Assembly (NCBI GenBank): GCA_934047225.1
Contig: CAKOHE010000103.1
Coordinates: forward strand, 248,001-312,000
DNA length: 64,000 bases
Source: Ypsolopha sequella
Taxonomy: Eukaryota > Arthropoda > Insecta > Lepidoptera > Ypsolophidae
Direction of reading: 5' to 3'
In this document: piece by piece, positions 25,060-56,130 of the stretch
Numbering within the stretch: the first letter of the stretch is position 1
How the letters are laid out: each line of letters begins with the position of its first letter
Position numbers and translations under genes: made by a program
Notes under the pieces: generated by a model
The model's database searches: none
What the model saw: only the letters and a program-made list of their open reading frames with translations
Told to the model about the DNA's origin: nothing

Positions 25060-25073
25060 ACCTCCCCCGAAGG
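25060..25073 (-). promoter_or_regulatory. Polypurine tract of the Gypsy element
   Basis: On the minus strand the sequence directly upstream of the 3' LTR is CCTTCGGGGGAGGT, a purine-rich run suited to priming plus-strand DNA synthesis. Confidence 0.7.
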
Positions 25074-26772: not shown

Positions 26773-29067
26773 TTAAACCTTTTGATAATACCTCGATAAA
26801 TGTATCGTATTGAATTTCCCTCGTATCACATTTGTAGCTGGGTCTGCCAAAACATATACATTTTGATATGGATTAGCTGCTATAATATAAGGTCCTTCGT
26901 ATAATGGCTCAAATTTCTTTGTGATCTTCTGTTTCGCATCAGATTTATTTAAACGTCTTATCTTTACTAGTTCTCCTATCTGGAAATTTATTGTTCGGAA
27001 TTTTTTATTAAATTTAAATCGACGTGACTTTCCAGCGTTTATAAGATTTTCTCTAACTTTTTCCCTTATTTGCTCGACAGTTCCTTCATCACAATCTTTC
27101 CTAATAACATCATCACAAGATAATTTAGTAGACTCTCCGTACATTATTTCACAAGGTGTGTATCCAGTACTTTCATGATAAGTGTTATTATATAGCTGTT
27201 CCAATTTTGGTAATAGAGTGACCCATCCCTTATGGTTTGTTCTACAATAAGTTCTAAATAATCTTCCTAATTCCTTGTTTACTCTCTCTGTGGTATTTGG
27301 ACGTGGATTCCTGACAGTGGTATATATTACTTTTACCCCCAATTTATTCATAGTTTCCTTCCATTGTTTGCTAGCAAATTGCGATCCATTGTCCGACATT
27401 ATTGCCTTCGGTTTTATAATTTCAAAGAACTTTTTTACTTTTCCTATAACTGATACAGCTGTCGCTTTTCTTAGGTCATAAAATTTCACAAATTTGCTAA
27501 ATGAATCTTGAATTACCAGGATATAATTCATTCCAAATTTTCCTGTTGGTAGGGGTCCGTATAAATCTATCATAACCAATTCACCTATTTGTTTTGAAAT
27601 AATTGATTGACATGGTCCTACATAACTTAGATTGTTACTTTTGACAATTTGACAAACATGACAAGTTTTAAGAACCCTTTTGACATCTCCCGTTAATCCC
27701 TGCCAATAAAATCTATCCCTTACATATTTAATTACCTTAAATGTTCCCTGATGTCCCATTTCCAGATGTATTTGGTTGATCAATTCTTCTCTCAAGCTCC
27801 TTGGCAAATATGTTAATCCTTTATTTGTTCCTTCTGGCTTGAATAGTAGAATATCATTTTCTATCACACACCTTTGTATTATTCTTCCTAATCTTCCCTG
27901 CGGGTGTAGACCCTCTTCTAAATTCCTCCTGATCTCTCTAATTTCTGCATCTTCTTTTTGTAGCTGTTGTATTCCTTTTAGTTTAGATAAAAGTCCCTTG
28001 TTTGTTTTTATTTCTGTATAAGCTATTTCTGGTAGTTTGACTTTATCTTCTTGCAACAACTCTCCCTCAGGTGGATATCTTGATAATACATCTGCTACTA
28101 AATTTTCTCTGCCTTTGATATGCCTAACCTCGTACTGAAACCTCTCTAAATAGTTAATCCACCTAGTTACCCTAGCATTATATAATTTCCAAGTTTCTAC
28201 GAAAGTTAATGCTTTATGGTCAGTTAGAATTATTACCTTAGATCCTCTCAAATATGTCTCAAACTTCTCTAAACAACTTATTACTGCAAAAAATTCTTGT
28301 TCAGTGACTGTCCAGTTTAGTTGAGATCCTCGCAATGCTTTACTATAGAATCCTAATACTCTCATTTCTCCTTCCTCATCTAATTGAAAAAGCACTCCAG
28401 CTAGACCAATTCCTGAACTATCCGTTTGTAGATAATAGGGTTGTGTAAAATCAGGGTGATGTAATTGAATGGTGTTTATAAACAAAGACTTAATTTCCTC
28501 GAATGCTCGATGCTCCCTTTCTCCCCAGTACCAGCACTTTTCTTTCTTTAATAACTCACATAGTGGTTTTATGTGCTCACTGTATCCCGGTATAAATCTT
28601 CTGTAAAAATTACATAATCCTAAAAATGCTCTGACTTGTTTAATTTTCTTCGGTGTCGGGAAGTCTTGAATAGCCTTTATCTTTTCTGGGTCTGTCTTCA
28701 GTCCTTCTGTCGAAATTATGAATCCTAACATCTTTATTTCCTTACATAAAAACTCACATTTGCTTAAATTGCAAGTCAGTCCAGCTCTCCAAAGTTTTTC
28801 TAGTACTATATCTAGATGTTCTAAATGTTGATCTAAACTTCCTGTTGTCATAATTGCCAGATCATCCAAGTAATTTACACAGAATTCTTTTACTTCATGA
28901 CCAAGTATTTTATCCATAGCCCTACTGAAACTTCCGACAGAAGTTTTCAATCCTTGAGGTAATACATTGTAGACATAAGATTTCCCATTAAAAGTAAAAC
29001 CGGTGTACTTCTTACTAGATTCTGAAATAGGGATTTGAAAATAGGCGTTTTTTAGATCAATGACACT
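26773..29067 (-). pseudogene. pol: Gypsy pol, distal part: RT, RNase H, integrase
   Basis: This is the downstream part of the polyprotein, cut off from its start by the BEL element at 29068. The frame is open from the insertion junction, where the N-A-Y-F-Q-I-P motif of the RT palm appears, to the stop at 26773. Residue numbers here count from the Met at 28950. RT catalytic YLDDL is at 27-31. The RNase H has candidate acidic residues in TDSSG (176) and TDHKA (244). The integrase zinc domain is HLEMGH...CHVC (395-433), and the catalytic triad is D462 (IDLYGP), D520 (SDNGSQF) and E555 (TTERVNKE). The sequence itself has no stop or frameshift, so only the insertion inactivates it. Confidence 0.92.
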
Positions 29068-29509
29068 TGTTCACGCTAGACCGTGACGCATGATTCGCAC
29101 CCGCAGGCGGGGATGACCCCCCCCCCGCCGCGCGCCGGTCGAGGCGCGCGCGGGCGCTCGTTCGGTCTGTTCGGATCGGCGAGCCTCTCTAGGCGCACGC
29201 GCGCGCGCCCGCGCAGCCGACAGCTCTAAACAATAGACATTCGCGTCAGCACAAACAATTATCGCGTACCTAAAGTGTTGTGTTAATACAAGTGCTGTGT
29301 ACATCACTCAAACCAGGACATTCAATACATCCCTGCACAGACGCCAGCTCAACTAGCCAACAAGAAGGCTCAGCACGTCACCGCATCTCCTGTCGGCCCA
29401 TCGAGAACAACATTCCAACAAAGGTCAGTTTACCCACAATCTTTTTCTTATCCTGTCTGCTCTCCCACTCAAATTCCATCAGCCCTGCATCCTGTAGCCA
29501 GCGGCTACA
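29068..29509 (+). repeat. 5' LTR of the BEL/Pao element
   Basis: 442 bp. The first half is strikingly GC-rich (a CCCCCCCCCGCCGCGCGCCGG tract near 29120-29140 and a GCACGCGCGCGCGCCCGCG run), which is unlike the surroundings. It matches 31667-32108 throughout as far as I compared. Confidence 0.93.
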
Positions 29510-29512
29510 TTT

Positions 29513-29532
29513 TTGGTCCTTCGGCCGGATCG
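29513..29532 (+). promoter_or_regulatory. Primer-binding site of the BEL/Pao element
   Basis: TGGTCCTTCGGCCGGAT, a few bases after the 5' LTR, is the well-known TTGGTCCTTCGGCCGG type of primer site seen in BEL/Pao elements. It pairs with a tRNA 3' end. Confidence 0.8.
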
Positions 29533-31015
29533 AATTCTGGTCCTTACAGTCCATTTTCACATTTTTGGCCCCTCGAACCGTTACTGAACCAGCCCCCGTC
29601 GATTTATTACAGTCCATTTTCAATCCAAGAAAATTTTTGGTTTATATCACCCCCCGCCTATCCCCCGCCGGCCCATAACTTTGTTTTGAACCAGCCCCCG
29701 TCGATTTACTACAGTCCATTTTCACCAGGTTACATATTTTGCCCCCTTTCCCGGCAAAAAATTTTTTGTGGTTTCGAATACCTATCGCGGGTAGATAATT
29801 TGAACCGCCGCCTGGAACATTCCATTTATCGGTTAGAACCGACCCCCCCACGCCCCTTTACAGAATAACTCATTTTCATCACGGTTGTAATTATTATTCA
29901 GCTCAGATAACATAAGTATGTTCATTCAGCCCAATTGTTTATTACAGTCCACTATATTTCTTTATTAAACCCCCCCCGTCACTTCCAGGGATTAATTATC
30001 AGCCCTTATAAACCCCATACGTAAAATTAATTAAACTCAAAGTCAGCATTTTGCTCAACATTTTTTACATGTAATTCCCGACCCAATCTTTTCAAATGTT
30101 CTCGAAGTGATTCAACTTTGCTCGTAAATACATAGTTCACATTTTAGTTTCATATCGTGTTACAACGTTTTGAGTACCTACACTTCACTTTGTTTTCTAT
30201 CGCGCGAAGAGGTGCAAATCTACCCACTGTCAAAGATAGTTCTCGTATCTTGCGAGATATTTTTTTGTGAGAGTATAAATTCGCTTTATTTCGTGCATAT
30301 ACATACGTATTACGTATATTACTAAAGCGTGATTTCAAGGCAAATAACATAAAAGTGAACAGGTTCATCAGCCCTTTTCGATATTTTTGTGTTGCGGTAA
30401 TCTCACGTCGCAGTAATATATTGCCGGACCGTTTATTTGTGTTATTGTCTGCTTTTTTTACCCGGGTATATATATATAGCACAAATATAGTAAACAATTT
30501 GTTTTTTTTCTCTTCTCATCTCTGATCTTATTGTTAATGGTACACATATAGGGTGTTCCACGTTGGTACAGCTCATATACAGGTTGTTTTTAAAAAAAAA
30601 ATATTTTTTTTTTTTTCTCTGTCGTGTTTATTTTCCGTGTTCCGTTTGAACATAGTCTTTGTTTTTTTTTTTTCGGCCCGCGCAAGTTACAAGCTATCCG
30701 CACGTTGGAGTTGGTAGCGCTCAAGTTTTTAATAACTCATTTTCACATATAGTCACACTCATCACACATTCAATCAGCACATACACACTCAACTCATTTT
30801 CACTCACACATTCAATCAGCACATACACACTCAGCTCATTTTCACTCACACATTCAATCAGCACATATAGACACACTCAGCTCATTTTCACTCACACATT
30901 CACTCATCAGATACACATTCAGCTCATTTTCACTCAATGAAACCAGCACTCAACGCACTCAGCACACTTATCACACACACACTCATCACATACACACTCA
31001 TTTCATTTTCACTCA
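29533..31015 (+). repeat. BEL/Pao leader with internal repeats, gag missing
   Basis: Several copies of ACCAGCCCCCGTCGATTTA / TACAGTCCATTTTCA occur at about 29545-29730, with a related TATTACAGTCCA at about 29940. From about 30750 to 31010 there is a 40-50-bp minisatellite of CAGCTCATTTTCACTCACAC / ATTCAATCAGCACATA units. No gag, protease or reverse transcriptase frame is present. Confidence 0.75.
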
Positions 31016-31678
31016 ATGACTTCAACTCCAACAGAGAATTCTTGTAACTCCGCACAACGTGTAGTGAACGTCACTAACACACCAATAATAGCAGACGTAC
31101 ATGGTCAATTTCACTCAGCACGAGCCCTGTTAGGTTTTATCTCACGTCGCGGTACTCCAGTTCTCATTCGCTCAGACTGCGGCACAAACAATGATGCAAT
31201 CACTCACAAGCTCGCGAATCAGCACATAACTTGGTTCGGCGCTCTGCACGAAATAATACTCAACTCAAGACCCCTCTGTCCAATTTCATCCGACCCTACG
31301 GACTTTGAACCTCTCACGGCCGGACATTTCATTATTGGTCGTCCGCTCACCGCTCTACCTGAGCAGTCTTTTGACGACAGACCCATATCTGCTCTTAAAC
31401 GGTTTCAACTCATTCAAGCGCTCTCTCAGCGCTTTTGGATTCTCTGGTCCAGATCCTACCTCCATACCCTGCAAACCCGCCCCAATCAGCTCTCCCCTTC
31501 CTCCCCTCCTCAAGTGGGTGAACTGGTCCTCATCAAAGAGGATGACTTGCCTCCGCTCCAATGGAAGTTGGGGAGAATTCTCCGCACAATGCCTGGCAGG
31601 GATGGAGTGGTCCAGGTTGTGGATCTGGACACAGCCCATGGAGCCGCAGCCCCGGCCCCCCCAGGATGTTCACGCTAG
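31016..31678 (+). pseudogene. BEL/Pao integrase remnant fused to a short leader peptide
   Basis: The 220-codon open frame starts with about 25 residues of unknown origin. Then comes integrase core sequence (FHSARALLGFISRRGTPVLI and SDCGTNND), which is normally SDNGTNF in intact copies. An internal deletion then joins HITWFGALHEI directly to ILNSRPLCPISSDP and LTAGHFIIGRPL, the C-terminal part of BEL/Pao integrases. The segment that holds the last catalytic Glu is lost. The frame runs into the 3' LTR. It is non-functional as an integrase, and staying open may be chance or recent deletion. Confidence 0.85.
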
Positions 31679-32108
31679 ACCGTGACGCATGATTCGCACC
31701 CGCAGGCGGGGATGACCCCCCCCCCGCCGCGCGCCGGTCGAGGCGCGCGCGGGCGCTCGTTCGGTCTGTTCGGATCGGCGAGCCTCTCTAGGCGCACGCG
31801 CGCGCGCCCGCGCAGCCGACAGCTCTAAACAATAGACATTCGCGTCAGCACAAACAATTATCGCGTACCTAAAGTGTTGTGTTAATACAAGTGCTGTGTA
31901 CATCACTCAAACCAGGACATTCAATACATCCCTGCACAGACGCCAGCTCAACTAGCCAACAAGAAGGCTCAGCACGTCACCGCATCTCCTGTCGGCCCAT
32001 CGAGAACAACATTCCAACAAAGGTCAGTTTACCCACAATCTTTTTCTTATCCTGTCTGCTCTCCCACTCAAATTCCATCAGCCCTGCATCCTGTAGCCAG
32101 CGGCTACA
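31667..32108 (+). repeat. 3' LTR of the BEL/Pao element
   Basis: Matches 29068-29509 with the same TGTTCACG start and GGCTACA end, followed by the right ACACT duplication. A C-rich stretch (CGGCCCCCCCAGGA) precedes it where a polypurine tract would be expected. Confidence 0.93.
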
Positions 32109-33331
32109 ACACTTATGTAACTAGTGCCATGGAATGAGTTCATTACATCTGATTGTAGTGGTGGTTTTTCAGTTTCTGGGACCATATACTTATTGATTCC
32201 CCTAGCATCAAGGAGTGGTCTAATTTCTCCATCTTTCTTGAGCGTGAATGTTAGTGGACTACAATAAGGTGTTGAAGCTCTACTAATAATCCCTAAATCT
32301 TCCATTTCCCTTAACTTTTCTTCTACCTTTCCTCTATATGCATATGGCACAGGATATGTCTTCCTGATAATTGGAGTATGAGGTTCCATTTTTATTTCAT
32401 GTTCATAGCAGTTTGCTCTTCCCAATTTTGTCGTGAATAGATACCTATATTTCTCTAATAGTAATTCCAGCTTTTCCTTTTCTTCTGTTCCTAGTTTCTC
32501 TCCTATCTTGTAATCTAATGACCCTCCTCCTTCTCTTACTTCTGTCTGTCTTTTAATTTCTGAATTTCCCTTAAGATGGTTATCATTACATGGTTCACAG
32601 AATTTTACTAATGCCCTATCTCTTCCTTGTTCAATTAAAATTCCTTTTTCTGGTCCATCAAGTATAAATTTTATCTTGTTTACTTTCATCCAATCAAATC
32701 CTAAAATCAGTGGTCTGCTTAACCCTGGTACAATCAGGAATCCAGTTTCTTTTTCAAATCTTCCTAAGTTCAAAGGTAATAATGCTATGCTTCGTATATC
32801 CATACTTCTTGGTCCTACAGCAGGCTTAATTTGTATTGGTTTTATTGGCATGACTGGCATATTTGGATTTATTTGTCTTATTTCACCCCATAGTTCTTCT
32901 GATATACAAGTGATGTCACTTCCTGAATCAACTAAACCAACTACCTCTATCCCTATTATCTGTACTAATATTTCCGATTTAAAATTCATTTGTTCTTTTG
33001 GTTCTTCCTCTTCCTCAAAGACTGAATGAATTTTTTGATTTTCTTCTATTTCTGTGACACCTTCTTCCACTTTAAGTTTTAGTACTCCAATTATTTGTTC
33101 TGGAATCTGCATCTCCTTCAATTTGAAAGTATTGTAACCTAACCCTTCCCTTTCTTCCCTTTCTAAATTTATACCCTTTAACGGAAACCTCAGTCCCCTT
33201 CCATTTATTCCCAACAATTGTCCTGGTTTCCATCCCATTAGGCACATCAAATGAAATGCTTTGTTCCCTATGGTTGAGGCTGAATCGGGAACAAGAACTG
33301 CAGCCTCCTCTAGTTTAATTCTATAATCTTG
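32109..33331 (-). pseudogene. pol: Gypsy pol, proximal part: protease and RT start
   Basis: The frame is open from CAA at 33331, inside the end of gag, to the BEL insertion at 32109. An Asp protease motif, VGLVDSGSD, has its catalytic Asp near 32929. RT fingers follow with RKTYPVPYAYR, FTLKKDGEIRPLLDARGINK and PPLQSDV. The insertion falls just before the first catalytic Asp region of RT. Pol is in the -1 frame relative to gag and overlaps it by about 20 nt. The heptamer ATTAAAC lies immediately before the gag stop and resembles a -1 slip site whose first base is off the ideal, so frameshifting is a plausible way to express pol. Confidence 0.88.
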
Positions 33332-34446
33332 TCATTGGACGTCCCTACCATCACACTATTGACCGCTTTATTTCCTCTTTGAATATTATCCGGCTTCTGC
33401 CATCTTCTATACCCTTGTTGAAATTCTTTCTTCTTTCTCTCAGCATTGTTATTTTTCTCAGGTTTATTGTATACATGAGCTTCTTGTTTATTAATATCGT
33501 CCATGCTTCTAAGAAATTCTGCAGTTCCTAATATAGTATTAGTCTTCGTGGTTGACCACACCTGTTGTACATGCTTAGGATAGTGTCGTATAATATCTGC
33601 CACCATTTGTTTCTCTGGTATCTTAAAATTCAACATTTGAGCCTTCCCAGCTAGTTTCAGAAAATGGTTTAGCATTGATACATTTTTCTGGCGATCCCAG
33701 CATCCTTGTGTTATATTCCTCCTTAGTTCGTTTTGTTCATTTTCTCCCCAGAAAGTTGCTAGGAAGTCCATTTTGAAATCTTCAAACTTTTCCCAGCGAT
33801 CTTTATAAATCCTCGCCCAATCCCTTGCTTCTTCTACTAGACATTCTAGTATTAAATCTAGTTCTTTCCCATTACATGACATTTTTTCCATATACCGTTC
33901 CAGATCTTCTATGAATGTGACTGGATGATACTCCTCCCTTCTCCCATACTTCGGTTTCTCAATGTTGAAGTTCTTCAAGTTATAAATCACATTTCTTTCA
34001 GGTTGCTTCATTAATTCTGCTTGTACTGACGATGACTGCTCCATCGGCATTCCTACACTTTGGTTAACTTCACAATCCAATTGAATTCTGGATCCTTCTG
34101 CATTGACTAATTCCCCTCCTATCATTTGGTTTTTATCTTTAACTTCCACTAAGTTTTTTGTTTGCTTTATTTCTTGGCTTAGTTCTTCTAATTTAGATGT
34201 AACTGCCCCAATTGTTCTTCGCATCATTCTGTATAAGACTTCAACTCCTTTTCCTTGCTTCTCTCTGAGTGTAGCTTCGGGTTTCTTAATCCGTTGTCTC
34301 TTTGATGGTCTACTTTCTTCTATTTCTTCATTTTCCCAAGGTTGTGCCTCATCTATACCTCTCATACCTGACTCTTGTGAAGTATTAGTCTCCATTTGTT
34401 CTGCAAACCTAGAAGGTATTTTACGTTTCCGATTTGGTCTAACCAT
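33310..34446 (-). CDS. gag: Gypsy gag polyprotein
   Basis: 378 codons from an ATG, ending TAG at 33312-33310. The N-terminal third is charged and carries Lys/Arg clusters (RPNRKRKIPSR, PSKRQRIKK). The central part looks like a Ty3/Gypsy capsid: ARDWARIYKDRWEKFEDFK, FLATFWGENEQNELRR and the QMVADIIRHYPKHVQQ helix. The C-terminus is basic, and I see no CCHC zinc knuckle, which some insect Gypsy elements also lack. The frame is intact. Gag would package the element RNA in the cytoplasm. Confidence 0.88.
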   Translation of the reverse strand: MVRPNRKRKIPSRFAEQMETNTSQESGMRGIDEAQPWENEEIEESRPSKRQRIKKPEATLREKQGKGVEVLYRMMRRTIGAVTSKLEELSQEIKQTKNLVEVKDKNQMIGGELVNAEGSRIQLDCEVNQSVGMPMEQSSSVQAELMKQPERNVIYNLKNFNIEKPKYGRREEYHPVTFIEDLERYMEKMSCNGKELDLILECLVEEARDWARIYKDRWEKFEDFKMDFLATFWGENEQNELRRNITQGCWDRQKNVSMLNHFLKLAGKAQMLNFKIPEKQMVADIIRHYPKHVQQVWSTTKTNTILGTAEFLRSMDDINKQEAHVYNKPEKNNNAERKKKEFQQGYRRWQKPDNIQRGNKAVNSVMVGTSNDKIIELN

Positions 34447-37400
34447 TTCTGCTTTACGCCTTTTAAGATCTTGTCACTCCCTAGAATACAAAGAAACATT
34501 TCTTTATAGATTACTAAATTCTTTACCATTTTCATAAAAATTTTCTGTTTTGTTTCCTACAATAATTTTTTTTATTTTATTTTTCCTATTACAATATTAA
34601 TGTTATTTTAGATAAATTCTTAATGATATTATAATTCCGAAAGCAAGCTAATTAAATTCCCCTTTTTTTTTTCAATTTTATTTATTTTCTTCTTCTTCTT
34701 TCAACCATTCCCACCTTATCTTATTTATATATTTAATTATTAATGCAATATATTTTTCTTCCTGCTTGGCGATACCTGAAAATTATAATTCCTTAATACA
34801 ATAACTAACTCTCTCTTCCTTTTTTTTTCTACGAACATTACCTATCCCTATCAATAAATTACTTCATTTTTTTTCTAAAGGAAGAAAGGGAGAGAAAAAA
34901 AAAAAATTATTATATAGCATTCCGGGACTAAAACTACAGACAACTGTCCAATAAAAATTCCTTAATTAGACACAATGTTATATTCTACAAATTAATAAGA
35001 TCCAACATTTTTTTCAACTTCTCCAGCCTTTCACTTAAACTCTCCATATTGGGAGTGGCTGATCTCCCTATCTGTCCTCCTGGTTCTTCTATAATTAAAA
35101 CAAATATATATATTTTTTTATTTTAGTAGATCTTATTCTATTATTTATATGTCTGGTGGTAAAGTAATTCCTTCCTTAATTTAACTCAATGAAACTCAGG
35201 GAAAAAAAAAAATTAGTTTATTTGTCTTTTAATTCATTTCTTCCATAATCATTCCTTAAGTCTTAGAGTGATCTAATATAAAATACTAAAATCAAAATTC
35301 CTTTAAATTTTTCCTTTAATATTTATTTTATTATTTTTTTTTTTTTTTTTTTTTTACTTATAAATATGCACCAAAAAGTAATAATAAAATATTAGTTAAC
35401 TCCTCGTCTATTCTATTTATACTCCCCATCACTATTTCGTTAAATTCCGTTTCCAGTACTTTTACATATTCTATGTGTTCAACATCATCTGAAAGTATTA
35501 GTTATTAAATTTACTATTTTCCTTTTTAAATCTATTGGATCAGAAAACTGTAACCTCAAGCCTTAAGTACTTCCTTTAATTTCCCCACTTTTCTTTCCGT
35601 AAAATAAAAGTATTAGTATTTTTTTTTTTAAAAAAAAATATTTCCAAAAAAAAAATTTTTAATATATATTAGAGAGGTTTCATCACACACTCTTCCTTAC
35701 AAAGTCCTTATTTGTCTCATGATGATATCCAAGAAATGTCTCTGTAACATAAAATCTTAGCCCACCACCATACCATTCTACTACACATATCTATCACCAT
35801 ACTATTTATCTAAAAAATAAAATATCTAAATATCATACATTATAGTTAGGTCTTCAGCATCTTAATTCGCAAATCTTAAAACATCACAATCATCCAAATA
35901 CTTTCTTTTCCAAAATTTGAGTTATATGACTCATCCAAGGTTCTATTGAAAATTAGTATTTCCCCAGAACTAGTCTCTTACGTTTTTTTTTTTTTTTTTT
36001 TTAAATCAATGTATTCGTGCTACTCTTTCCCTCAACACTTCACAGAATATTACCTTCCTCTTTACCAAGGCCACATATCACCTAATCTGTTCCCCTCTAT
36101 GTTTTCATTCACCCTTATGTAGTAAAATAAATAATCTCCCCCTTACTCCCTATTTTCTTTCCTCCCCCTACACCTTAATTTTATTAATTTTTATTCTGCC
36201 TAATTTTTTTATTTTTCTGATAATTTAACCTCCTTTTATTCTGTTACTTACCCTGTTAACAGTAATCTATTATATTTTTTTTATAAGTCTGTTTATCTTT
36301 CTGTGCTTTCTTTATATCCTTGTTACCTTAGGACAGCTCCTACATATAAGTAGTCTTAAGGCCCTACGTTTCCTACATAATAATTGTATTAAACTATTTT
36401 GAACTCAATGATATTGTTAGAAAGTCTACACTAGAACTCTCGCTTCGTGCGCTGCGAGCATGCATAATCAGCAAATTTGCGAGGTTTTCCTGAAATCTCT
36501 GAAAAAATATTGAGAAATAAATACAAATGGGTCTATAAGTGTCTTCTATAAAGAAAATTCAGAAAAGTTTTATGTCTCTCCATTGAACACCTTTGCTATA
36601 AACACAATTATTCGCAATTTGAGGAACTTACTTTGTGACTTTTCCTATTGAGTAAGTTAACCCAATTATATTTTTAGATCGACTTGTGTTTATAGTATCC
36701 TCTATTGTAACATATATCTAGCTTGTACTTGAAGGAAATATTGAATTGGCAATTTTAATTAAACAAAATGCTCATTTTGGAATGGTAGGACCTTAAGCCA
36801 TCTAAACTAAAATTGATTTAAGAGCTGCACTCTTACTGATGGAAGAAAATTAATATTTGATCCTGTACTTTGCCCTATCCTAAATATTAATACAATATAT
36901 AAATATTTTCTTATTATTAGCTTAAGAAAAGTAAGCCCTCATGAATTTAACATGTATCTCAAACTATTGTTAAACAAATAATAAGCATAAGATATACATG
37001 TAGGTAATTTAGATCTTCAATGAACTCTGATAATTACTTCTTTTTTTCTTTCCGATAAAGATATTTAGCTTATAAATTTTATCTGTAAAATTTTATTGTT
37101 GCATACTTTCTCTACTCATAGTGACATCTAGCGGTTTAGTGCTACCTCACCTGGTCTGCTAGCCTATCATCTAGTAAGCATCTTTCCAAAATTCCTTAGA
37201 AATTCTTTTACTCAGATTTTGCCTTCTAATCAAACTAAGTTACATAAGCCTTCTTTTGATTAAATTTTAGAATTACGTACTAAAAGATTCTGTTAGCTTT
37301 CTAGTTTTCTGTGTTATGTACTGTCATTTATTTATTCTGTATTGGTAGTCTTTGTGGTTTACTTTATCCTTCAAAACTTAATGGTTACCCTAAAACTGAA

Positions 37401-38099
37401 ATTTAACGATAACTAAATATACTCGAATATTATTGCGCGATTATCATAATTTAAACCATAATTATTTCAAAGCAAGTGTTCTAATATTACATCTATAGTC
37501 TGTCCACCAAACTAGTTTATAAATTCTTTCTCCTAGATGGCAGTACTAGTCTACTTCTGTATTTTTTTCTACCAACACTAAATCCAATTTGAAACCAAAA
37601 TAGTCTGAAATCAAAAATTTTACACACTAAAATATGTTTTGTATTTAAACATATTCCACCTTTCTAGAATAAAGTAAATCATAATGCACTTTCCTAAACA
37701 TTTTCTCACTCAACCCTACAGTTTGTTTTAGTGCACTGCCAAAATTTATATAGGTAAATACTGCTCAGCCTAAAACAATTTTAATGTTCTCATGTACCTT
37801 CATAACCAACAGAGTCTGACACATGCCTCTTTTTTTTATTCAAAACTAAACCTAAAACCTCAAGATGATTATTTATGACATTATTGTTTCCTTAAAACGA
37901 AAAAGAAAGGTTAATGTGTGAGTAAAGTAAAAGAACTATTTCGTAATAAATGAATAGCGGCATTATCAAAGGAGTCGGTACGTTTGTTTAACATGAGCCG
38001 CGTGCGCACGACTCCTCCCCTTTCCCCTTTCAACCTGAACTTCTAACAACTAGTTGCCGATCGGACATGATTTGAGATACTAGTATAATAATAAAAAAA
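34447..38099. other. Gypsy leader region without ORFs
   Basis: 3.6 kb of very AT-rich sequence with many T runs on the plus strand (for example 35330-35355 and 35980-36000). There are no sizeable open frames on either strand. Relative to gag this is 5' leader. Relative to the antisense gene it is upstream sequence. Confidence 0.6.
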
Positions 38100-38503
38100 A
38101 TATTATACAGGTCATTTAAGTGTTGAGTGATTATAAATTAACATAATTTATTATTACAAGAACTCCTACTTCGTTTGTGTTGTGTTGAAGTGGACTTAAT
38201 AAAACTGTGGAATATAAATAATTTGCTCAGTTATGAAATCTTGTTCAAAGACTGCGATAAAGTGTAGCTGTTGCTCAAATATGAGTGTAATCCTTAAACT
38301 GTGTTTTATTTACATTATAAGCAAGGATTTCTTGTTTGAACATGTGTGCTTGTTGCATAACTAACAGCTGTAAAAAGGTTTTATGTGATATGTGTTTTAA
38401 ATATTGTGTCACTGATTTTAAGAGTGGAACTGCTGTCTTAAGTAAAGAAAAGACATCCGAAGTGCCTATGCAGTGCTCGTTCTTCAAATGACTGAAAAGA
38501 AAG
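38100..38503 (+). other. Candidate first exon and promoter-side of the antisense gene
   Basis: The stretch ends in a strong donor, AAAG|GTAAGT at 38503/38504. A short AUG at 38488 (MTEKK, phase 1) would be cut by that donor and, joined to the likely acceptors near 40883 or 40926, would end at TAA 40941-40943, before the main ATG. It would then act as an upstream ORF. A GC-richer block at 37980-38065 (CCGCGTGCGCACG, CCTCCCCTTTCCCC) just upstream could be a promoter. The transcription start is not known. Confidence 0.4.
38342..38491 (+). CDS. Small Cys-rich ORF on the antisense strand
   Basis: 49 codons starting MCACC and including CKKVLCDMCFKYC. There are eight cysteines, six of them in C-x2, C-x3 or C-x4 spacings in the first 22 residues, reminiscent of a small zinc-binding knuckle. 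An overlapping frame just upstream (from 38234) also has CSCC. It sits within the candidate first exon. Whether it is translated is unknown, and it could be chance in a Cys-codon-rich stretch. Confidence 0.25.
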   Translation: MCACCITNSCKKVLCDMCFKYCVTDFKSGTAVLSKEKTSEVPMQCSFFK

Positions 38504-40882
38504 GTAAGTAACTTAACTGAAACCACCGCTAACCCCATGAATTTTCTAAAAACAATAAAATTTTAGTACCTATTTATTACCTTTTTTATTATTACTGATT
38601 TTCTAATTAAACAATAAATTTCAAGTAATTTAGCCAAATTACATTAAAACTTTTTCTTTTATTTAATTAAGAAAATATTTCTATTGACATTTCTAACAGA
38701 AATTACATATTTGTACTATTAAGTATGATCAGTAGTGTTTTGTATCAAAATTGTTGGAAAATTAGTGTTTGAAGTTTTATGAATGTACAGTAAGTAGATA
38801 TTCTTATAAAATATTGTCGACTTATTTCTGAATTTTCTTAAAGCTGATTCCTCTAATTCGTAATTGTATGTATACAAACTCCATCTTTTGGTTTGAAACT
38901 TTGTGAGCCACTTTTATGCAACACTATGTAACACTACCCCTTTATTAGTTAATAATTTTCCCATTAGATGGCTGTACTGGTCTAATTTTTCCTTTCACAT
39001 TCTCTTTTGAATATGCATTCTACTAAAATTTTTTCTTTTTGCTGAATTGTGTGACTGTACATTGTTCCTATTCTTACCTACACAATTTGACATCCCTTAA
39101 CCCCCTTTTTTTTTATTATTGACAAAGCTCTAATTTTGCTCTACTGATCAATTAAACATGAAGTTCGTCAGACATATACTTGGAACAAGGAACTAATTAG
39201 CGGTTAAGCCCATTAAATTAATATGAACTAAGGAATTACTTATTAAGTCAGTTTATTTCTATACTAAATTTACATAGAGATTTGCTTTACTTCACAACAT
39301 AATTTATTTTATTATTCCTCGCTCCTTGACGCCCTCTTACGAATTTTTATATTACTAATAAGTTTACCCAGTTGCTCCGTTATCCACTTTCTAATTGAAA
39401 CTGATTCACTAGCGCCATTCCATCAAATGTTTTCCAAACTCTCTATTACTTTTCTTTTCCGAAACATTTGCTTACTTGATCTTAAATTTTCTCAATCTTT
39501 AGGGTTCGTAATGTTTCTAACCCCATTTGAAACCTTTGCCCGACCAATTAAATATGCTTCCGCGATAGTAATTTGTGTTTTAATCTAACCTTCTGTCTCC
39601 TACCCCTTCGCGGTCGATATTCAAACTTTACTAATACAAAACACAAGAGTTTCATATTTTCGCCGATAGATGGTTTGATTTGAAGTCGTTGCTCTAAAGA
39701 GCCTGTTTTACCGACCTAGTACTCTGTGTTTGTCCCTTTTATTTTCTTTGATAATTTCTTATTCAAATTTTAATTTCGATGGCCTTGGAATTTATTAAAA
39801 TTTTTTTTAATCTTACAATAATCATATTTAGTCATAACACTTTCTTTTCTTTAGATTTACTCTAAGATCTTTCAATTTTATTAGCACTCAACGACTCCCT
39901 ACACAATTTCGTCCTTAAGGCGCTGGCATGCAAATAATCAATAAAACTTTTCAAATCTCTACATACTTAATTAAGGATCCGCATATAGTCTGACACCAAA
40001 TATTAATTTAAATAATTCATAGAATCTTCTATAATTAAATTATTTGAGATATAAACCCTTCAGTTTATTTCTTTAAGTCTAGGTCTCCTCTAAAGGCAAA
40101 ACAATCCAGCTACTATAATTCGTATATTAAGTACCTATGTCTTTTATAAAATTGAAAATTTCGTTTGCCAAAATACACATAACAACTTAGTCCTAGTGCA
40201 AAAATGGACAAATAACCTAATTATATTTTTCCTTTTTTTTTTTCAATGGTTAATAAATTATTATTTCCTTTTATATATAGATAGCAAACAAAAGAAAATC
40301 ATAGTACAAGAATATTTCCTGGAAGTCTATTTTCAAAAATAAAATTTCAAAGGTGAAAATTTCCCAAATAGATTATAATATTTATATATATATATATACA
40401 AATAAATACTCAAATAGAGAAACACTTATTGTACCCTTGGCAGACCTCGTACGTTCTTTCAAAATCTATTGAGGAAGAATTAGCTCTCTTATTTTTTTAT
40501 TGCGAAGATGAATAAATACAGTGTATAACATATTTCCTCTGTACGCCTGAGCCTTAAGTTGCACGATAAAAATTTCTCCCTCCATGTGATAATCTAGCTT
40601 CTTCTCACTCATACATACTCATGTCACCCTCACATTGATAATAAATGCTACTCAACTGAATAATCTTTTCACAACTATTTCCTCATTTTTTTTTAACCAA
40701 TTTTCTTCCTCTCCATGTTTAAATTTTCCTTAAAAATTTTCTTAAATCCCTTTTTTTTTTTATTACTGCCTTTTCTAATCATTAACTATTACTTATGTAT
40801 TTTTTTAACTGATTTTTGATCATCTCTTACTACTTCCGTTCTTTACGCGTCGCTTTGTCATTTTTCAATTTTGTGTTACTCC
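38504..40882 (+). other. Candidate large first intron of the antisense gene
   Basis: AT-rich, with no coding frame on either strand. It begins GTAAGTAACT. Possible acceptors lie at its right end (GTTACTCCAG at 40882 and CACTTTAG at 40926). It also holds an AT dinucleotide run at 40380-40397. Confidence 0.4.
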
Positions 40883-40959
40883 AGTTCCCGCTCATTTTAC
40901 GCGCCTGTTGTTACACTTCACTTTAGCCTTCCTTGTTTATTAAGCAATTTCCTATAAAA

Positions 40960-42000
40960 ATGACTTTCTTCTCCCTAATCAAACAATTTCCCTGTCTCTG
41001 GGACTCTGAGGATCCTACTTATACTTCTGTTATTTTGAAAAGGGCTAATAGAAACAAGTTGTTAGAGTTACTTAATGCTCAGTCTTCCATTAATTTATCG
41101 ATGCCAGAACTGAAAGCTCTTATAAGGTCCTACCAAAGGAAACTTCTCAAGACCTCTAAAATTCAGGTAAGTACATGTATTATTATTATGTTTTACTTTT
41201 GCTTATTAGAAGTATTATTTTTTTTTATTAATGTTAGCCATTTGCTTCTCTTTCACAGAAAAGATCTCAAACTTCTGAAGTTACTGGTAACACTTCAACC
41301 TCTCATATTCCCTTAGTGGATTCGGAGGTTCTCCTTTCCCCCCCTACTTCTGTGGCTATTACAAATGCTGTGAGCCAAGACTCCCTCCCTGTCGTCTTCT
41401 ATACTTTTCCTCAAGAGCCACCTTGCATAACATACCCGAGCCCCCTCGTAGACTCTTCTCAAAATGTATCTGAACCTTTTGATGGCACTCTTCCCTCAGC
41501 TACCCAGCTGGAATGGACAAATTTTAGCTCCTCTGACAACTCCTCTATTCCGACCTTGGAGTCTATATGTCCTAGTCTTTTCTGTCCAATATGGGAACAA
41601 ACTTCCACTGAAAACATTCTAGAAGACGCCGTACCCCTTTCTCTTGTCTGTCAAGACCCAACTCAAGTTCCAGAAGACATTCCTCCCTCAATCATTCAAA
41701 ATCCCCCTCTATTACCGTCCACTCCTCAAAGCACCTCCTCTGCTCTATCAGTAAGTTCCTTTTTTTTTTATTATTCATCTACTAACTATTTAATGACCAT
41801 CTAATTATTTTTCTCTCTTTTTTTTTCAGACTCCCCTCCCTGATTTCCTAAATGATTTCCTGGAGTTTTCCCAACCCCCACTGCCTGATTCAATGGATCT
41901 GGTAATCTTAAAAATACTAACATTTACCCCTCCTTTTATTTTTAAATTCTTTACTAACACAATAATGCATTTCCTTTTTCAGGATGACTTTACTCTATAA
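40960..42000 (+). CDS. Antisense spliced MADF-like transcription-factor gene inside the Gypsy element
   Basis: Coding exons are 40960-41166, 41259-41750, 41830-41901 and 41983-42000. The introns are 92, 79 and 81 bp, with donors GTAAGT, GTAAGT, GTAATC and acceptors TTTCACAG, TTTTTTCAG, CTTTTTCAG. All are phase 0, and the joined frame is open for 262 codons. Residues 1-69 look like a MADF domain (Myb/SANT-like DNA binding): LIKQFPCLWDSEDPTY matches the LI-x-x-(F/V)-P-x-LWD...Y signature and MPELKALIRSYQRKLLK the third helix. Residues 70-233 are Ser/Thr/Pro-rich and low complexity. The tail, about 234-262, is acidic-hydrophobic (DFLNDFLEF, then DDFTL at the end), like an activation domain. The gene lies between the LTRs, opposite to gag-pol. 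The inferred role is a sequence-specific activator, perhaps acting on the element's own LTR or on host genes. The start ATG (AAAAATGA) follows an in-frame TAG at 40924. The MADF call is from motif memory. Confidence 0.78.
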
Positions 42001-42764
42001 AACTCTAAACTACACTTCCTATACTAACGGTGTATTCTAATTTTTCCTTTTTTTTTTGGTAGGTGTTTTTTTTTTTTTTCTAACCTACTAACTTAGATGT
42101 TAAACCTAACCCATGAGCTTATTGACTTTTCTACTAGACTATAATAGCAACTTATTTACAATTCTCACATTGAGAATAGATTAACCATACCTATCTACCA
42201 CCGTTCATTTATCTTACTATCAATTTCCTTTTCAATTAACCTTGCTTTTTTTTTCTTTTGAACAAATTAATACATAGTTTTTTTTTTCAATGTAGCGCTT
42301 TACAACTACTAAATCAGCTGTTATTTTCAGCACTCTCTTGCTACATGAACCTATCTTAACCTGTGCGTCTCCTTTTATTTATTTGTCAAAATAATGGTTG
42401 CCATCTATGGTCAACTATCAAGTTAACTCAACTTCTTTTAGAAAATATTATTTATATACAAGTAAAGTAATAGTATTAAAATGATAGTTCCTCTTTTTTT
42501 TTTTAGTTTCAGTGCTAAATTTTCCAAATTATTCTACACAATCTGTGTAGGTACCTATAGACTTTTCTTTTAACATGTATATATCCAATAAGATTCTTCT
42601 CAGATATTGTATGATTTCATTACTGATTTTATCATAATAGATAATCAAAGTTTAAGGTTATTAATATTTATGAAAAACAAAGTTTCCAAATGTCAGCAAT
42701 TAACATAATCTATAATTTTGCTTAATGTTATTAGACAATTTTAATAATTCCTAAAACTTTTCAG
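42001..42764 (+). other. Downstream of the antisense stop; possible 3' UTR or intron
   Basis: AT-rich with repeated T runs. No long frame. No AATAAA is obvious directly after the stop at 42000, so the transcript may continue into the candidate exons below. Confidence 0.4.
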
Positions 42765-43750
42765 AAGAAAACACTCTATCTTCTCTGGATAAAATCTTCA
42801 GTTGAAGCGTCGTTAAGAGACTCCTCATTACAACAAGCAACCAATCACTCCTCCCCCCGGGACTGTGTTCAGTTAAATTGTGTTTCAACATCAAAATTCT
42901 CTACACTTCAAGACAATGTCACCATTCAAGAGCACATGAAGAAGATCTGACCCTGCTACTGAACCAACCCTCAATGAAGGTATTAATAATTTTATGTAAA
43001 TACAGTAAAAATATTATTATTATTTTTTTTTTTTTTTTTTTTAATAGATTTGTTATTTTTTTTCTATGTTAGTAAAAATCCAATTTCTATCATATAACTA
43101 AAAATACTAGCAAAAGTGACTTCTAATGGCCAATTATTATTATTTTATTTAATATATGTAATATTGTGTAAGTACTATCTATTTTGTTTTAAAATTATTA
43201 TTTCTTTTTCTCAGGACTATTAAAAACTTCTATGGATAATCAGTTGTCTGAACGCATGGCAAGTTGGTTCAGTGCAAATAATAAAATCAAAAGTCTCCAC
43301 TTTGTTGTTGGCCCATGGTAAGTAACTAAAATATGTTTCCTGTTACTATGAGTTAAAATCTCTCAATTTAGTTTAGCAAATGTAAACAGTTTATTAATAC
43401 TAATCTCCCCCCACTTACCAATTCTCTTACTGCAGTGCCAAACATGTTATAACTCATATGTTAACTATAAATTAAGTATTCATTTCATGAATTAAATCAG
43501 TCTATAAAAAAAATCAATGACAAAGTGTATTTACTTTTGACTTAATGACCCTATAATACTGAGTGAAACTAAAAACTGAACCTTATTCAAAAAAAAAAAT
43601 TTTTTTTTTTTTTTCAGGTTTAAAGCTTCAAACAAGGAACAATCACTCAAAACTTTTCACCGAACCACGGACAAGCCATTCAAAACCCTTCACTGAACCA
43701 TGGACAAGCCATTAACTCCACCAGATCTTACTTCTGCCACCCATGCAACG
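42765..43750 (+). other. Further candidate antisense exons (42765-42979, 43215-43317, 43618-43750)
   Basis: Acceptors AACTTTTCAG (ends 42764), CTTTTTCTCAG (43214) and TTTTTTTCAG (43617) alternate with donors GTATTA (42980) and GTAAGT (43318). The first block has a 61-codon open frame from the acceptor. Exons 43215-43317 and 43618 on join in frame (W codon split TG|G) into about 54 codons starting MDNQLSERMASWF and ending before TGA near 43697. These could be a second small gene or alternative 3' exons. The last block contains a 28-bp imperfect duplication (GAACCACGGACAAGCCATTC / GAACCATGGACAAGCCATTA). Confidence 0.4.
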
Positions 43751-43961
43751 CACTGAAACCTGCCTTATGTTATAAAAGAAGCGAACATCCACCAAATACA
43801 TTAGATTCCTACTTAATACACAGTAAAGCTCCCCCAGACATGGCTCATTACTAAAATGCTTCTATCTTTATTCCGGCAAAAGATTGTGACCTTAAGGGCC
43901 ACACTGCTGTATCAAACCACCTCCACACAAACACCAGAACATTTGAAATAACTTAATTAAT

Positions 43962-43985
43962 GGATACTGGGAAACGGCACCACCA
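43962..43985 (-). promoter_or_regulatory. Primer-binding-site-like sequence of the Gypsy element
   Basis: On the minus strand, three bases after the 5' LTR, the sequence is TGGTGGTGCCGTTTCCCAG. It begins TGG, as expected for pairing with a tRNA CCA end. I could not assign the tRNA. Confidence 0.6.
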
Positions 43986-43988
43986 GAT

Positions 43989-46613
43989 TGTACCCCCCCC
44001 CCTTTACCACTGAATAAAATTTTTACTTAAAAATACTGAAATGAAACTGACTGAATCTGACTGAACCCATTTACTATTTACTATTATTATCTACTCATAA
44101 CTTGAACCCCAATAACATTATATTAACTACTCCTATTGGATCGTTTGATACAGATTAAAAACTAAGGCCTGAAGAGTGATCGTCTGATAAATAACCATAC
44201 ATTGTGAACCAAGTAGTAACCCCTATTCTTTTCAAAGCAATTCTGTAAGGAACCATTCTACAACTATCTAGACCACAAAATTATGAATACTAAATGTAAA
44301 TATTTCCTACCATATTTGACTTTAGGTGTTAATTTCATTGGAAAATCAATCAAAAGTCATTACCTTAAAGATATTGGTAAAATCAATATATGAGAGCTTA
44401 TCTGTTTAAAATTATTTATGAAAATGTCTGTCTGCACTAGAAATAAATTTAATTTAGTTTTAGATTTTGCGAACTTTGGATATTATGATTGTATTTTGAG
44501 TAAATAAAGAACTTAACAGCTATATTATTATTTATGAAATTACATAACAGTTGTAACTTTTGTATAATCTTTAGGAACCCTTTATTGAACTTCTATAAGT
44601 TTGAAATATGTAATATTTATCTTTCTAACAAGTTACTTAAGGGTATGTAGGCAGCAAATCATATTGACCATTAAACTGAACTTGTGAAACTTTTGGATTA
44701 AAAAAAACTATTACATAATAGTATTTCTGAACTGTAGTTTGTATTTAAATGAAGCTTAGTACTTTAAAAATAAGGTACATATTTCTATAAATTTTATCTA
44801 TAGATACTTTTATTAGATTAATCAAATAAATTGGAAGATATTGAATCCATCAGAAAGTGCTACCTGACATATCGGGAGCTAATCATCACATGGTACCTTC
44901 CATAAACCTATTACCAAAACCATTTTCTGTAAGTACCTTATCTCATATGTACCTAGGTTTCATTTAATGAACCCTTTTAAGACTTAGTAGTCTCTATATG
45001 AAATAAGTCAATATAAATTACCTTTATATAAATAAATTTAATATATTTTTAATTACTATTTCACTAAAAATTATATTTAGTAAAGATTGTAAATAACAAG
45101 AAAGGTTCCCTTCGATCATACATAAGTCTTGGCTATTTTCCTGACTATGAGTGATAATAATTTCAATAAAACAATCAAGTCTCATTTACTGATTTATTAA
45201 AATAAATTAGAACTTTATTTTTAGTTCTCAAGCATCTATTTTATACCATTTTAACTTTCTGGCTTCACTATTCCATAGGTATATAGTGTTATAGCCTGGG
45301 TCACAATATACCAGTTAAAATGAAAGAATATTATTTATTCAGTACAAACAGACACATCATTTTGTATTATAAGAATTAATATATTGAAATTATATCTCTT
45401 TCGTTAAAATAATATATTTCTTAGGCACAGTTTTATTTATTTCAATGAATTTGGGCCTGTTTATCGAACTCCCATACAAGAATTTTCCAATGAGAATATT
45501 AAATTTTCTCTAAAAGAATCTAATTTGACTCTAATAATTTATATAGCAATTAAAGGGTCTCTTTGTTTATTTTTGTCCAATAATAATTCACATGCTCTGC
45601 ACATTAATGTAGACCAACCAAATAGGAATACAAGAAATAGCGTCCTGAAGAATTTAAACAACAAATTGGCAAGCGTACACACAAAATCAAGACATAAAAA
45701 TTAGAGGAATTTCGCGAGCAAAATAAATAGATTCAGTAGGTCAAAATAAATTTTAGAAACACTTCTAGAAGTATTAGGACTTGATTATCCTATTACTCAC
45801 AACCTCTGCCGATGAAAGCAATCCATAATAGCACTAAAAATCACTATATTTAGTGAATCACATAGCACATTTCAACCTTATCTTTCACAGAAAAGGGATT
45901 TTTCACTTATTTCACTTTCGCGGTTTTTATCTAGGCTTACACACAAGCCCATATACACTACTCAGGCAATCCTAAACTAATACTTTTACTTCCCTGCCTA
46001 AATTTAATAATTATTTGCCTGAGAAACCTATATTCTAAACGTTTTATAATTAAAATAAATTATAACCGAAAACTCGCACCTCAATCGGGCAGCGTCACGT
46101 CCGCGCGGATTTAGTCGTAGATAAGAACTGCCATTTCCCGAATCGGACCTATTTTTATATCCCCACCAACCCAATAACTTCCAGACACAACCGAGCACAG
46201 GTGAGCACAAGTGAAACTTGCTGAGCACAGGTGAGACTCACTGAGCACAACCAGTACTTCCCGGTAATATTCGATAACATTTGCTAACATTCGATAATAT
46301 TTGATACTTCTTTACGTTAAGACCAATCTTTGTGTTTTACGCTACTATTACAAAATTCTACCTTAAGCCTAATACTTTAAAGCAGAATTTCCGTTAACAG
46401 TTCGTTGTTCTAAAATATTTTATGCGTTGGCTTTCATTTAAGGATCCGTAATGGTTTGAAAGCCATACTAAGTGTGATATTTTTATTACTTTGTGAATAG
46501 TTTCATTTAATGATTTTGAATTGAATCCTGTATTTCTTTGTTTCTTTTCTCTCTTTTTTTTTTTTGTTTGTAACAAGGCGGATCGTGGTCATAATAGAGT
46601 CCGATCCGGCACA
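43989..46613 (-). repeat. 5' LTR of the Gypsy element (2625 bp)
   Basis: Nearly identical to 22436-25059. As the 5' copy it would hold the promoter for gag-pol on the minus strand. Its opposite strand is downstream of the antisense gene and carries an AATAAA near its start (44004-44016 region), which could end that transcript. Confidence 0.93.
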
Positions 46614-46686
46614 ACTACTTGACCAAAGAACGAGTTAACCTACCAACTGTCTTCTGTCCTTAACTCGTCCAAATGTAAACAAGCCT
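46614..46686. mobile_element. Right part of the MITE split by the Gypsy element
   Basis: It begins with the right ACTA target copy. It contains CGAGTTAACC and ends CAAATGTAAACAAGCC, inverse to the left terminus at 21933. Confidence 0.7.
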
Positions 46687-55115: not shown

Positions 55116-55120
55116 AAATT

Positions 55121-56130
55121 TATGCTGGTCTAACATAGCAACCCTTTGAGCCGCTGTTTCGTTTTATGCTGGTCTAACATAGCAACCCTTTGAGCCGCTG
55201 TTTCGTTTTATGCTGGTCTAACATAGCAACCCTTTGAGCCGCTGTTTCGTTTTATGCTGGTCTAACATAGCAACCCTTTGAGCCGCTGTTTCGTTTTATG
55301 CTGGTCTAACATAGCAACCCTTTGAGCCGCTGTTTCGTTTTATGCTGGTCTAACATAGCAACCCTTTGAGCCGCTGTTTCGTTTTATGCTGGTCTAACAT
55401 AGCAACCCTTTGAGCCGCTGTTTCGTTTTATGCTGGTCTAACATAGCAACCCTTTGAGCCGCTGTTTCGTTTTATGCTGGTCTAACATAGCAACCCTTTG
55501 AGCCGCTGTTTCGTTTTATGCTGGTCTAACATAGCAACCCTTTGAGCCGCTGTTTCGTTTTATGCTGGTCTAACATAGCAACCCTTTGAGCCGCTGTTTC
55601 GTTTTATGCTGGTCTAACATAGCAACCCTTTGAGCCGCTGTTTCGTTTTATGCTGGTCTAACATAGCAACCCTTTGAGCCGCTGTTTCGTTTTATGCTGG
55701 TCTAACATAGCAACCCTTTGAGCCGCTGTTTCGTTTTATGCTGGTCTAACATAGCAACCCTTTGAGCCGCTGTTTCGTTTTATGCTGGTCTAACATAGCA
55801 ACCCTTTGAGCCGCTGTTTCGTTTTATGCTGGTCTAACATAGCAACCCTTTGAGCCGCTTTTTCGTTTTATGCTGGTCTAACATAGCAACCCTTTGAGCC
55901 GCTGTTTCGTTTTATGCTGGTCTAACATAGCAACCCTTTGAGCCGCTGTTTCGTTTTATGCTGGTCTAACATAGCAACCCTTTGAGCCACTGTTTCGTTT
56001 TATGCTGGTCTAACATAGCAACCCTTTGAGCCGCTGTTTCGTTTTATGCTGGTCTAACATAGCAACCCTTTGAGCCGCTGTTTCGTTTTATGCTGGTCTA
56101 ACATAGCAACCCTTTGAGCCGCTGTTTCGT
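55121..56130 (+). repeat. Satellite, 23 units of 44 bp
   Basis: The unit TATGCTGGTCTAACATAGCA continues with ACCCTTTGAGCCGCTGTTTC and GTTT, with an exact 44-bp period from 55121 to the last start at 56089. All but two units look identical; the variants are CCGCTTTTTCG near 55860 and GCCACTG near 55988. The right end fades into a T run. No reading frame is maintained. Confidence 0.97.

Follow-up and report, generated by a model that had tools for sequence, protein, structure and literature searches.

A predicted spliced, antisense MADF-type gene in the leader of a Gypsy retrotransposon of Ypsolopha sequella: a candidate regulator of its own LTR

The window, a 64,000-nt stretch of a Ypsolopha sequella contig, contains a Gypsy LTR element whose sense strand is the minus strand. 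The element has the two LTRs and short target duplication of Ty3/Gypsy elements as well as their pol order of RT, RNase H and integrase. An earlier note on this DNA had described near-identical LTRs with a matching 4-bp duplication. This description was borne out: the LTRs, each ~2.62 kb with TG...CA termini, were 99.92% identical across 2,627 aligned columns, and ACTA was present on both sides. The element at 22436-46613 is a recent insertion. Its main features are the following.

22432-22435 and 46614-46617: target-site duplication ACTA, flanking the element on both sides
22436-46613, minus strand: the entire Gypsy LTR element (24.2 kb with its nested insertion), defined by its LTR pair and gag-pol domains
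43989-46613, minus strand: 5' LTR, from the LTR-pair alignment
43969-43985, minus strand: stretch beginning TGG, just internal to the 5' LTR, which we take to be tRNA-primer-site-like
34447-43988: leader of 9.5 kb between the 5' LTR and gag, housing the antisense gene
33310-34446, minus strand: gag ORF of 378 aa, with a weak Retrotrans_gag match (16.7 bits; cut-off 24.1)
32078-33250, minus strand: start of pol, with a G-patch and then an aspartyl protease (18 bits; cut-off 20.7)
29068-32108, plus strand: nested insertion of 3 kb, presumably of BEL type, that splits pol; its own LTRs lie at 29068-29509 and 31667-32108
31016-31678: DUF5641 ORF within the nested insertion
26773-29070, minus strand: remainder of pol (RT, RNase H and integrase), past the nested insertion
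25060-25073, minus strand: what we take to be the purine tract, just internal to the 3' LTR
22436-25059, minus strand: 3' LTR, from the LTR-pair alignment

The protease and the start of RT precede the nested insertion. The G-patch domain ahead of the protease (33134-33250) scored 22.6 bits against a cut-off of 22. A search of Rfam at gathering thresholds gave no match, and viral contigs searched with pol and with the antisense gene yielded no relatives.

The nested insertion, which had gone unmentioned in the earlier note, has LTRs 442 bp long and 100% identical. A second contig of the genome, C104, holds an identical Gypsy insertion (L036), with identical flanks where these were compared (~1.2 kb and ~1.0 kb). 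According to the match positions, the stretch of the nested insertion measures 3,047 bp less in C104. We take C104 to be an allele or duplicate of the window element that lacks this insertion. Because the otherwise identical copy is shorter at precisely this stretch, the nested insertion is probably very recent. Since C104 carries the same Gypsy insertion as the window, it was not counted as a separate copy.

The leader, which separates the 5' LTR from gag, contains a predicted gene of four coding exons oriented antisense to gag-pol.

40960-41166, plus strand: exon 1, 69 codons, MADF domain (PF10545, 22.0 bits)
41259-41750, plus strand: exon 2, 164 codons, Ser/Pro/Thr-rich linker, whose splice sites are kept in relatives
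41830-41901, plus strand: exon 3, 24 codons, acidic/hydrophobic DFLNDFLEF stretch, with a counterpart in a second Gypsy family (family 2)
41983-42000, plus strand: exon 4, DDFTL-stop, for which the family-2 counterpart is EDFLRQ-stop

The joined exons comprise 789 nt (262 codons and TAA), and the length of every exon is divisible by three. The introns, of 92, 79 and 81 nt, are all GT-AG and in phase 0. The model proposed in the earlier note, of four exons, three phase-0 GT-AG introns and 262 codons, was thus exact in its coordinates and its joined frame was open. The exons also bear a coding signal: their codon-position asymmetry was 31.2, as compared with a mean of 5.4 and a maximum of 19.0 in 1,000 shuffles. 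On the leader's plus strand, stop-free frames extend to 188 codons at most, a length reached by none of 300 shuffles of the leader and by 3 of 500 shuffles of the local 2.1 kb. Besides the gene's own exons and the frame opposite gag, the leader has no stop-free stretch of more than 106 codons. We consider it almost certain that the antisense gene itself is real; its splicing and expression are predicted.

We also considered whether a nested DNA transposon had carried the MADF gene into the element. None of the 10 element ORFs scanned, eight of them in the leader and one of these the exon-2 frame, matched a transposase, so the adjoining DDE transposase gene typical of PIF/Harbinger elements was not found. 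Among the 109 inverted-repeat pairs in the leader, the best 25 (the longest) included none distinct from T/A-rich noise. This candidate was rejected on both of these results together with the presence of the gene at the same place in other copies.

The earlier note had read the N-terminus as a MADF domain. In the window, this reading is at the margin: the gathering cut-off of PF10545 is 22 bits, and the score was 22.0 bits for exon 1 and 21.0 bits, 1 bit below the cut-off, for the joined protein. By contrast, relatives exceeded the cut-off, with 24.8 bits for exon 1 of the copy at C10:14.06M (L003), and 25.6 bits for exon 1 and 24.2 bits for the joined protein of family 2. MADF was the sole Pfam family matched by the joined window protein. 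Structure models of exon 1 were modest (pLDDT 71 and 77), with four helices in the single-sequence model and three in the five-sequence model, MADF domains having a three-helix Myb/SANT-like fold; Foldseek and VIA-align searches with these two models gave no clear match to a MADF or Myb fold. In a sequence search of solved structures, the joined protein had no match and exon 1 had eight weak matches, none of them convincing. None of the 104 candidates scored in a protein-database search with the family-2 protein passed. Read by eye, the sequence has basic residues after the MADF domain.

A DNA search of the moth's own genome with the antisense gene returned nine rows at seven places. One of these places is the C104 copy of the window insertion, which leaves six distinct places. 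Two of them, C22:9.41M and C22:9.43M, are 17 kb apart and may represent a local duplication. Five rows were aligned, namely the window, L003, L004, L005 and L007; the C22:9.43M place, split in pieces, was left out. In this alignment, the donor GT was kept at 14 of 15 sites and the acceptor AG at all 15. The copy at C10:14.06M (L003) is young, its LTRs being 99.73% identical and flanked by ATGT on both sides, and its antisense frame is intact at 266 codons. L004, L005 and L007 have decayed, having lost their starts or acquired frameshifts or stops. The proposal that other copies carry an open frame therefore held for L003 and for the family-2 copies described below, but not for these three.

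Comparison of the window with L003 supports the constraint of the predicted exons relative to the introns. The exons diverged by 10.6% as compared with 16.7% for the intron interiors. The exons contained a single indel, of 12 nt and in frame, versus five in 246 intron bases. At the intron rate, 16 exon indels would be expected, a figure inflated by the greater richness of the introns in T runs.

Selection on the protein was assessed by dN/dS (Nei-Gojobori), for which the substitution-matched null had a mean of 0.75 rather than 1. Between the window and L003, dN/dS was 0.54 (bootstrap 0.34-0.87) and 50 of 500 null runs were equally low; exon 1 taken alone gave 0.225 and the part after it 0.765. 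When changed amino acids were counted instead, 220 of 2,000 null runs were as low over the gene as a whole, 112 when exon 1 was taken alone and 838 when it was left out. The lack of stops despite the changes observed between these two copies was uncommon under the null, occurring in 86 of 2,000 runs. Against L004, L005 and L007, respectively, dN/dS was 0.44, 0.39 and 0.43, and amino-acid changes fell below the null, with 1, 0 and 0 of 2,000 runs for the whole gene, 0, 3 and 0 for exon 1, and 24, 1 and 7 for the part after exon 1; the three comparisons are not independent of each other, the window sequence being part of each. The earlier note had proposed to compute dN/dS between copies. By the amino-acid counts, constraint was significant against the three decayed copies, but the comparison of the window with L003 was not significant. 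In two C10 copies, gag was 95-96% identical to that of the window versus 86% (L003, L016) and 74% (L005, L017) for the antisense-gene region, a pattern suggestive of either recombination among lineages or a leader that changes more quickly.

To place the gene among related elements, we searched the moth's own genome with gag, which returned 14 rows at 13 places. Four of these places, two on C20, one on C3 and one on C19, belong to family 2, whose gag protein was 64% identical to that of the window over its full length at the three places compared. The family-2 LTR is ~4.3 kb on C3, and LTR pairs were 99.86-100% identical over the C3 and C20 stretches compared. Each of the three family-2 leaders read (one on C20, and those on C3 and C19) contains an exon antisense to gag with 42% identity to exon 1 of the window gene (E 2e-13). 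The remaining exons were placed by eye and then checked by script. The resulting gene has four exons, three introns, all of phase 0, and a 186-aa frame that is open in all three copies. The copies differ from each other at one to four of 561 nt and have no exon indels; introns 1 and 3 vary in length. A fourth family-2 copy (C20:999013) has exon 1, according to the genome search with that exon.

The two families share more than the domain. In family 2, the gene also lies between the 5' LTR and gag, unlike the aORF-3R position of plant elements. The family-2 C-terminus, PSPTLDDFDLDDYLDL...EL|EDFLRQ, matches the layout of TPLPDFLNDFLEF...DL|DDFTL in the window, and the last intron is at the same place. 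By contrast, the window leader had no DNA match to the family-2 leaders. The earlier note had raised the prospect that the same antisense exons recur in other copies, and they do so in leaders of both families. This recurrence assigns the gene to the element rather than to one host locus; for both families, a single-copy host gene is ruled out.

At 5 of the 13 gag places, the antisense gene was found neither in the sequence upstream of gag, read for up to 10 kb, nor by the exon-1 search of the genome. The leader breaks off at C10:1.39M and no leader similarity occurs at C10:0.71M; the other three, on C21, C14 and C13, are distant families. The exon-1 search also identified a decayed MADF exon at C10:1.31M and two open MADF exons on C24 (L051 and L052), ~50% identical to exon 1, 112 kb apart and in opposite orientation. 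For one of the latter, the 5.3 kb of sequence examined toward gag contained no match to the gag or pol of family 1. It is possible that the C24 exons are host relatives or relics. The family-2 gag copies at C20:1000990 and C20:1022097 (L043) are 21.1 kb apart in the same orientation and are perhaps elements sharing an LTR. The 20 bases preceding the C19 LTR are identical to internal element sequence in the C3 copy.

We next scored splice sites using matrices that approximate fly values. In addition to the coding exons, the following plus-strand features could belong to the antisense transcript.

38501-38509, plus strand: strong donor AAG|GTAAGT (donor 38504; 8.8 bits), candidate end of a 5' untranslated exon
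43196-43620, plus strand: candidate 3' untranslated exons, with acceptors 43215 and 43618 and donor 43318
44013-44018, plus strand: AATAAA of the candidate antisense transcript, within the 5' LTR

Between 37500 and 44020, the plus strand has five acceptors above 6 bits, a number reached in none of 200 shuffles (mean 0.41), and three donors above 6 bits (shuffle mean 0.43; as many in 5 of 200). The C10 copy retains the GT of donor 38504, the AG or GT of acceptors 43215 and 43618 and donor 43318, and the weaker sites 42769 and 42979, which make six of the eight extra sites considered. The other two are not retained: the AG before 40926 is missing from this copy, and the AATAAA at 44013 is absent from the start of its LTR. 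Together, these sites suggest that predicted untranslated exons flank the coding exons on both sides. Within the coding region, the second and third donors score low, at 1.4 and 1.9 bits, and just one of the six internal splice sites of family 2 exceeds 5.5 bits, in each case by the approximate fly matrix. The LTR array described below contains strong plus-strand donor-like sites, CAGGTGAG, at 24647, 24677, 46201 and 46231. They may be incidental or may be used by an antisense transcript that starts in the 3' LTR, as happens in HTLV.

Sense-strand introns are lost in the course of retrotransposition, and the earlier note had proposed that these introns survived by virtue of their antisense placement. 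In partial agreement, the minus (genomic-RNA) strand has no strong donor between 37500 and 44020, a result matched by only 4 of 300 shuffles. In the leader as a whole, however, the scarcity of minus-strand donors was not significant, with two observed and as few in 28 of 200 shuffles.

A recurrent LTR motif that might serve as a binding site had also been anticipated. The U3 region contains such a repeat, adjacent to the presumed promoter.

46166-46305 (5' LTR) and 24612-24751 (3' LTR), minus strand: 14 in-phase 10-bp units in U3
46154-46159, minus strand: TATAAA of the presumed LTR promoter

The array occupies sense LTR positions 309-448, and the unit that follows runs into the TATA box. It constitutes the strongest 10-bp periodicity in the Gypsy element, with lag-10 identities of 0.555 and 0.600 in two copies of the element, each above all 200 shuffles. 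The LTR at C10:14.06M (L011) has 15 units at the same place but with a different consensus, about ACC-R-NNN-G-N-C. Between these two elements, the array is 45% diverged, as compared with 10.6% and 4.8% over the adjoining 208 and 252 sites, respectively; the remaining LTR is 7.3% diverged and the first 100 bp of U3, 37.6%. Repeat arrays diverge fast even without selection. At the array position, the C10:27.9M copy has other sequence. In family 2, no such array was detected in the first 1.6 kb of the C3 LTR (L041; lag-10 identity ≤0.364); the start of the C19 LTR is identical to that of the C3 LTR, and the C20 stretch (L042) begins inside the LTR. The expected motif thus exists in two family-1 copies but is absent from the C3 and C19 LTR starts of family 2. 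Ten bp correspond to approximately one turn of DNA, so the sites of the array would face the same side. The array is a candidate target of the MADF protein.

Several known systems share part of this arrangement. HBZ of HTLV-1 is likewise an antisense gene of an LTR retroelement, and its spliced transcript encodes a nuclear regulator of transcription; HBZ, however, is a bZIP protein whose transcription begins in the 3' LTR, whereas the Gypsy gene encodes a MADF-type protein between the 5' LTR and gag (PMC10186651, in excerpt). Conservation of the antisense gene among copies is common to both; the bZIP domain is not found in the Gypsy protein. In the plant elements Retand, Grande and RIRE2, antisense accessory genes are kept across families, the TRP28 domain of Retand is predicted to bind DNA and the Grande product is nuclear; these ORFs lie between pol and the 3' LTR and encode other domains, and the word 'intron' is absent from the main text of both reports (PMC11963269, PMC7264820, in excerpt). 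The brtn gene of Boty, from Botrytis, is an antisense accessory gene of a non-plant LTR element, but it is fungal, occupies the pol-3' LTR position and is described in the excerpted text without mention of MADF (PMC7264820). Burro and Ogre are similarly very large Gypsy elements with extra coding capacity, although their extra domains differ and 'antisense' is absent from the main text of the report (PMC6431247, in excerpt). The excerpted account of rotifer elements describes no antisense gene (PMC5408684). PIF/Harbinger gene 2 also encodes a transposon-borne MADF/Myb-like protein, and one such protein was shown to bind element DNA; unlike the Gypsy element, PIF/Harbinger is a DNA transposon with a transposase, no LTR and no gag-pol (PMC9710019, in excerpt).

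Among the matches listed in a search of open-access titles and starts of abstracts, from which subscription journals were mostly absent, none reported an antisense MADF-type gene in an animal LTR element. The Gypsy case differs from the known antisense genes in host type (animal), position, domain and conserved introns. An antisense accessory gene that keeps its introns provides a direct, testable case of the means by which a retroelement can own a eukaryotic gene of this complexity. Antisense regulators, described for retroviruses and for plant and fungal elements, would thereby be extended to an animal Gypsy lineage, here with a recognizable domain of DNA-binding type and, in the LTR, a candidate target site.

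On balance, we favour the view that the element encodes its own transcription regulator, antisense and spliced, which is predicted to bind the U3 array by the TATA box. In this model, a promoter inside the leader would give rise to an antisense transcript that is spliced to an mRNA. The small MADF protein would enter the nucleus, where its N-terminal domain would bind DNA, with the U3 array as the predicted site, and its acidic C-terminus (DFLNDFLEF...DDFTL; in family 2, DDFDLDDYLDL...EDF) would recruit the transcription machinery. The protein would thereby drive or tune the LTR promoter. The introns would persist because the RNA that is reverse transcribed represents the other strand, on which their sites do not function in splicing. 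Transcription of the antisense strand across the leader might in addition dampen the genomic RNA of the same copy; the protein would therefore act mainly in trans. We regard the LTR-regulator role of the MADF protein, taken separately, as an even proposition. A further step, that an intron-bearing antisense MADF activator and an operator of ~14 sites, set one turn of DNA apart and continuing to the TATA box, form a private circuit in which protein and operator change together between sibling lineages, is put forward tentatively and seems rather unlikely. If true, each sibling lineage would have its own switch, and the circuit would be an independent Gypsy counterpart of HBZ at the opposite end of the element.

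Other roles are conceivable for an element-encoded MADF protein. It might act as a helper in nuclear entry or integration, its MADF domain binding the DNA copy of the element and the protein bringing cDNA and integrase into the nucleus or tethering them to target chromatin. In Harbinger, a 9-bp motif of the transposon is bound by its MADF/Myb-like protein, which also takes the transposase to the nucleus, and the PIF MADF protein is needed for this localization (PMC9710019, in excerpt). The Harbinger protein is a precedent both for an LTR regulator and for this main rival. The basic residues noted by eye after the MADF domain fit a helper, as does the presence of the gene in family 2, in which the C3 and C19 LTR starts carry no U3 array. 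We nevertheless consider a helper unlikely: the acidic C-terminal exons, common to both families, read more like an activation domain, and an antisense promoter would uncouple the protein from Gag-Pol expression. More doubtful still is a protein whose targets are host functions, such as silencing or germline expression programmes, rather than the LTR of its own element. The part of the gene after exon 1 evolves fast between the window and L003, as conflict proteins often do, and the LTR array is lacking in family 2 where it was looked for; however, the same part is constrained against L004, L005 and L007, loose change may merely reflect weak constraint, and nothing in the analysis points to a host target.

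The remaining alternatives assign little or no function to the protein. We judge it very unlikely that the retained feature is the antisense transcript, for instance as a tuning antisense RNA, with the protein secondary. Non-coding antisense transcripts do occur in other LTR elements (PMC7264820, in excerpt) and the candidate transcript, overlapping with the leader, may terminate inside the 5' LTR, but exon indels are far rarer than intron indels, the frames stay open, and the MADF exon is recognizable as protein between families whose leaders lack a DNA match. It is highly improbable that the gene is a captured host MADF gene that travels as a passenger and does nothing for the element. Such a passenger would account for the C24 exons and for the decay of L004, L005 and L007; against it, two families with 64%-identical gag share the gene, its place, its orientation and its exon phases, a passenger would not stay open so long, and the young copies read are intact. 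Finally, the exons could be a chance arrangement on a T- and C-rich strand with few stops, on which local shuffles occasionally yield 188-codon frames. The probability of this is close to nil. Relatives conserve the exon boundaries and exceed the MADF cut-off, and the second family conserves the layout; a chance ORF is ruled out by these conserved boundaries and layout together with the codon asymmetry and the scarcity of exon indels.

Elsewhere in the window, positions 55119-56133 hold a tandem array with a 44-bp period, whose shifted self-matches are >99% identical. An open 392-aa ORF at 9476-10654 resembles a mariner-type transposase, as judged by eye alone.
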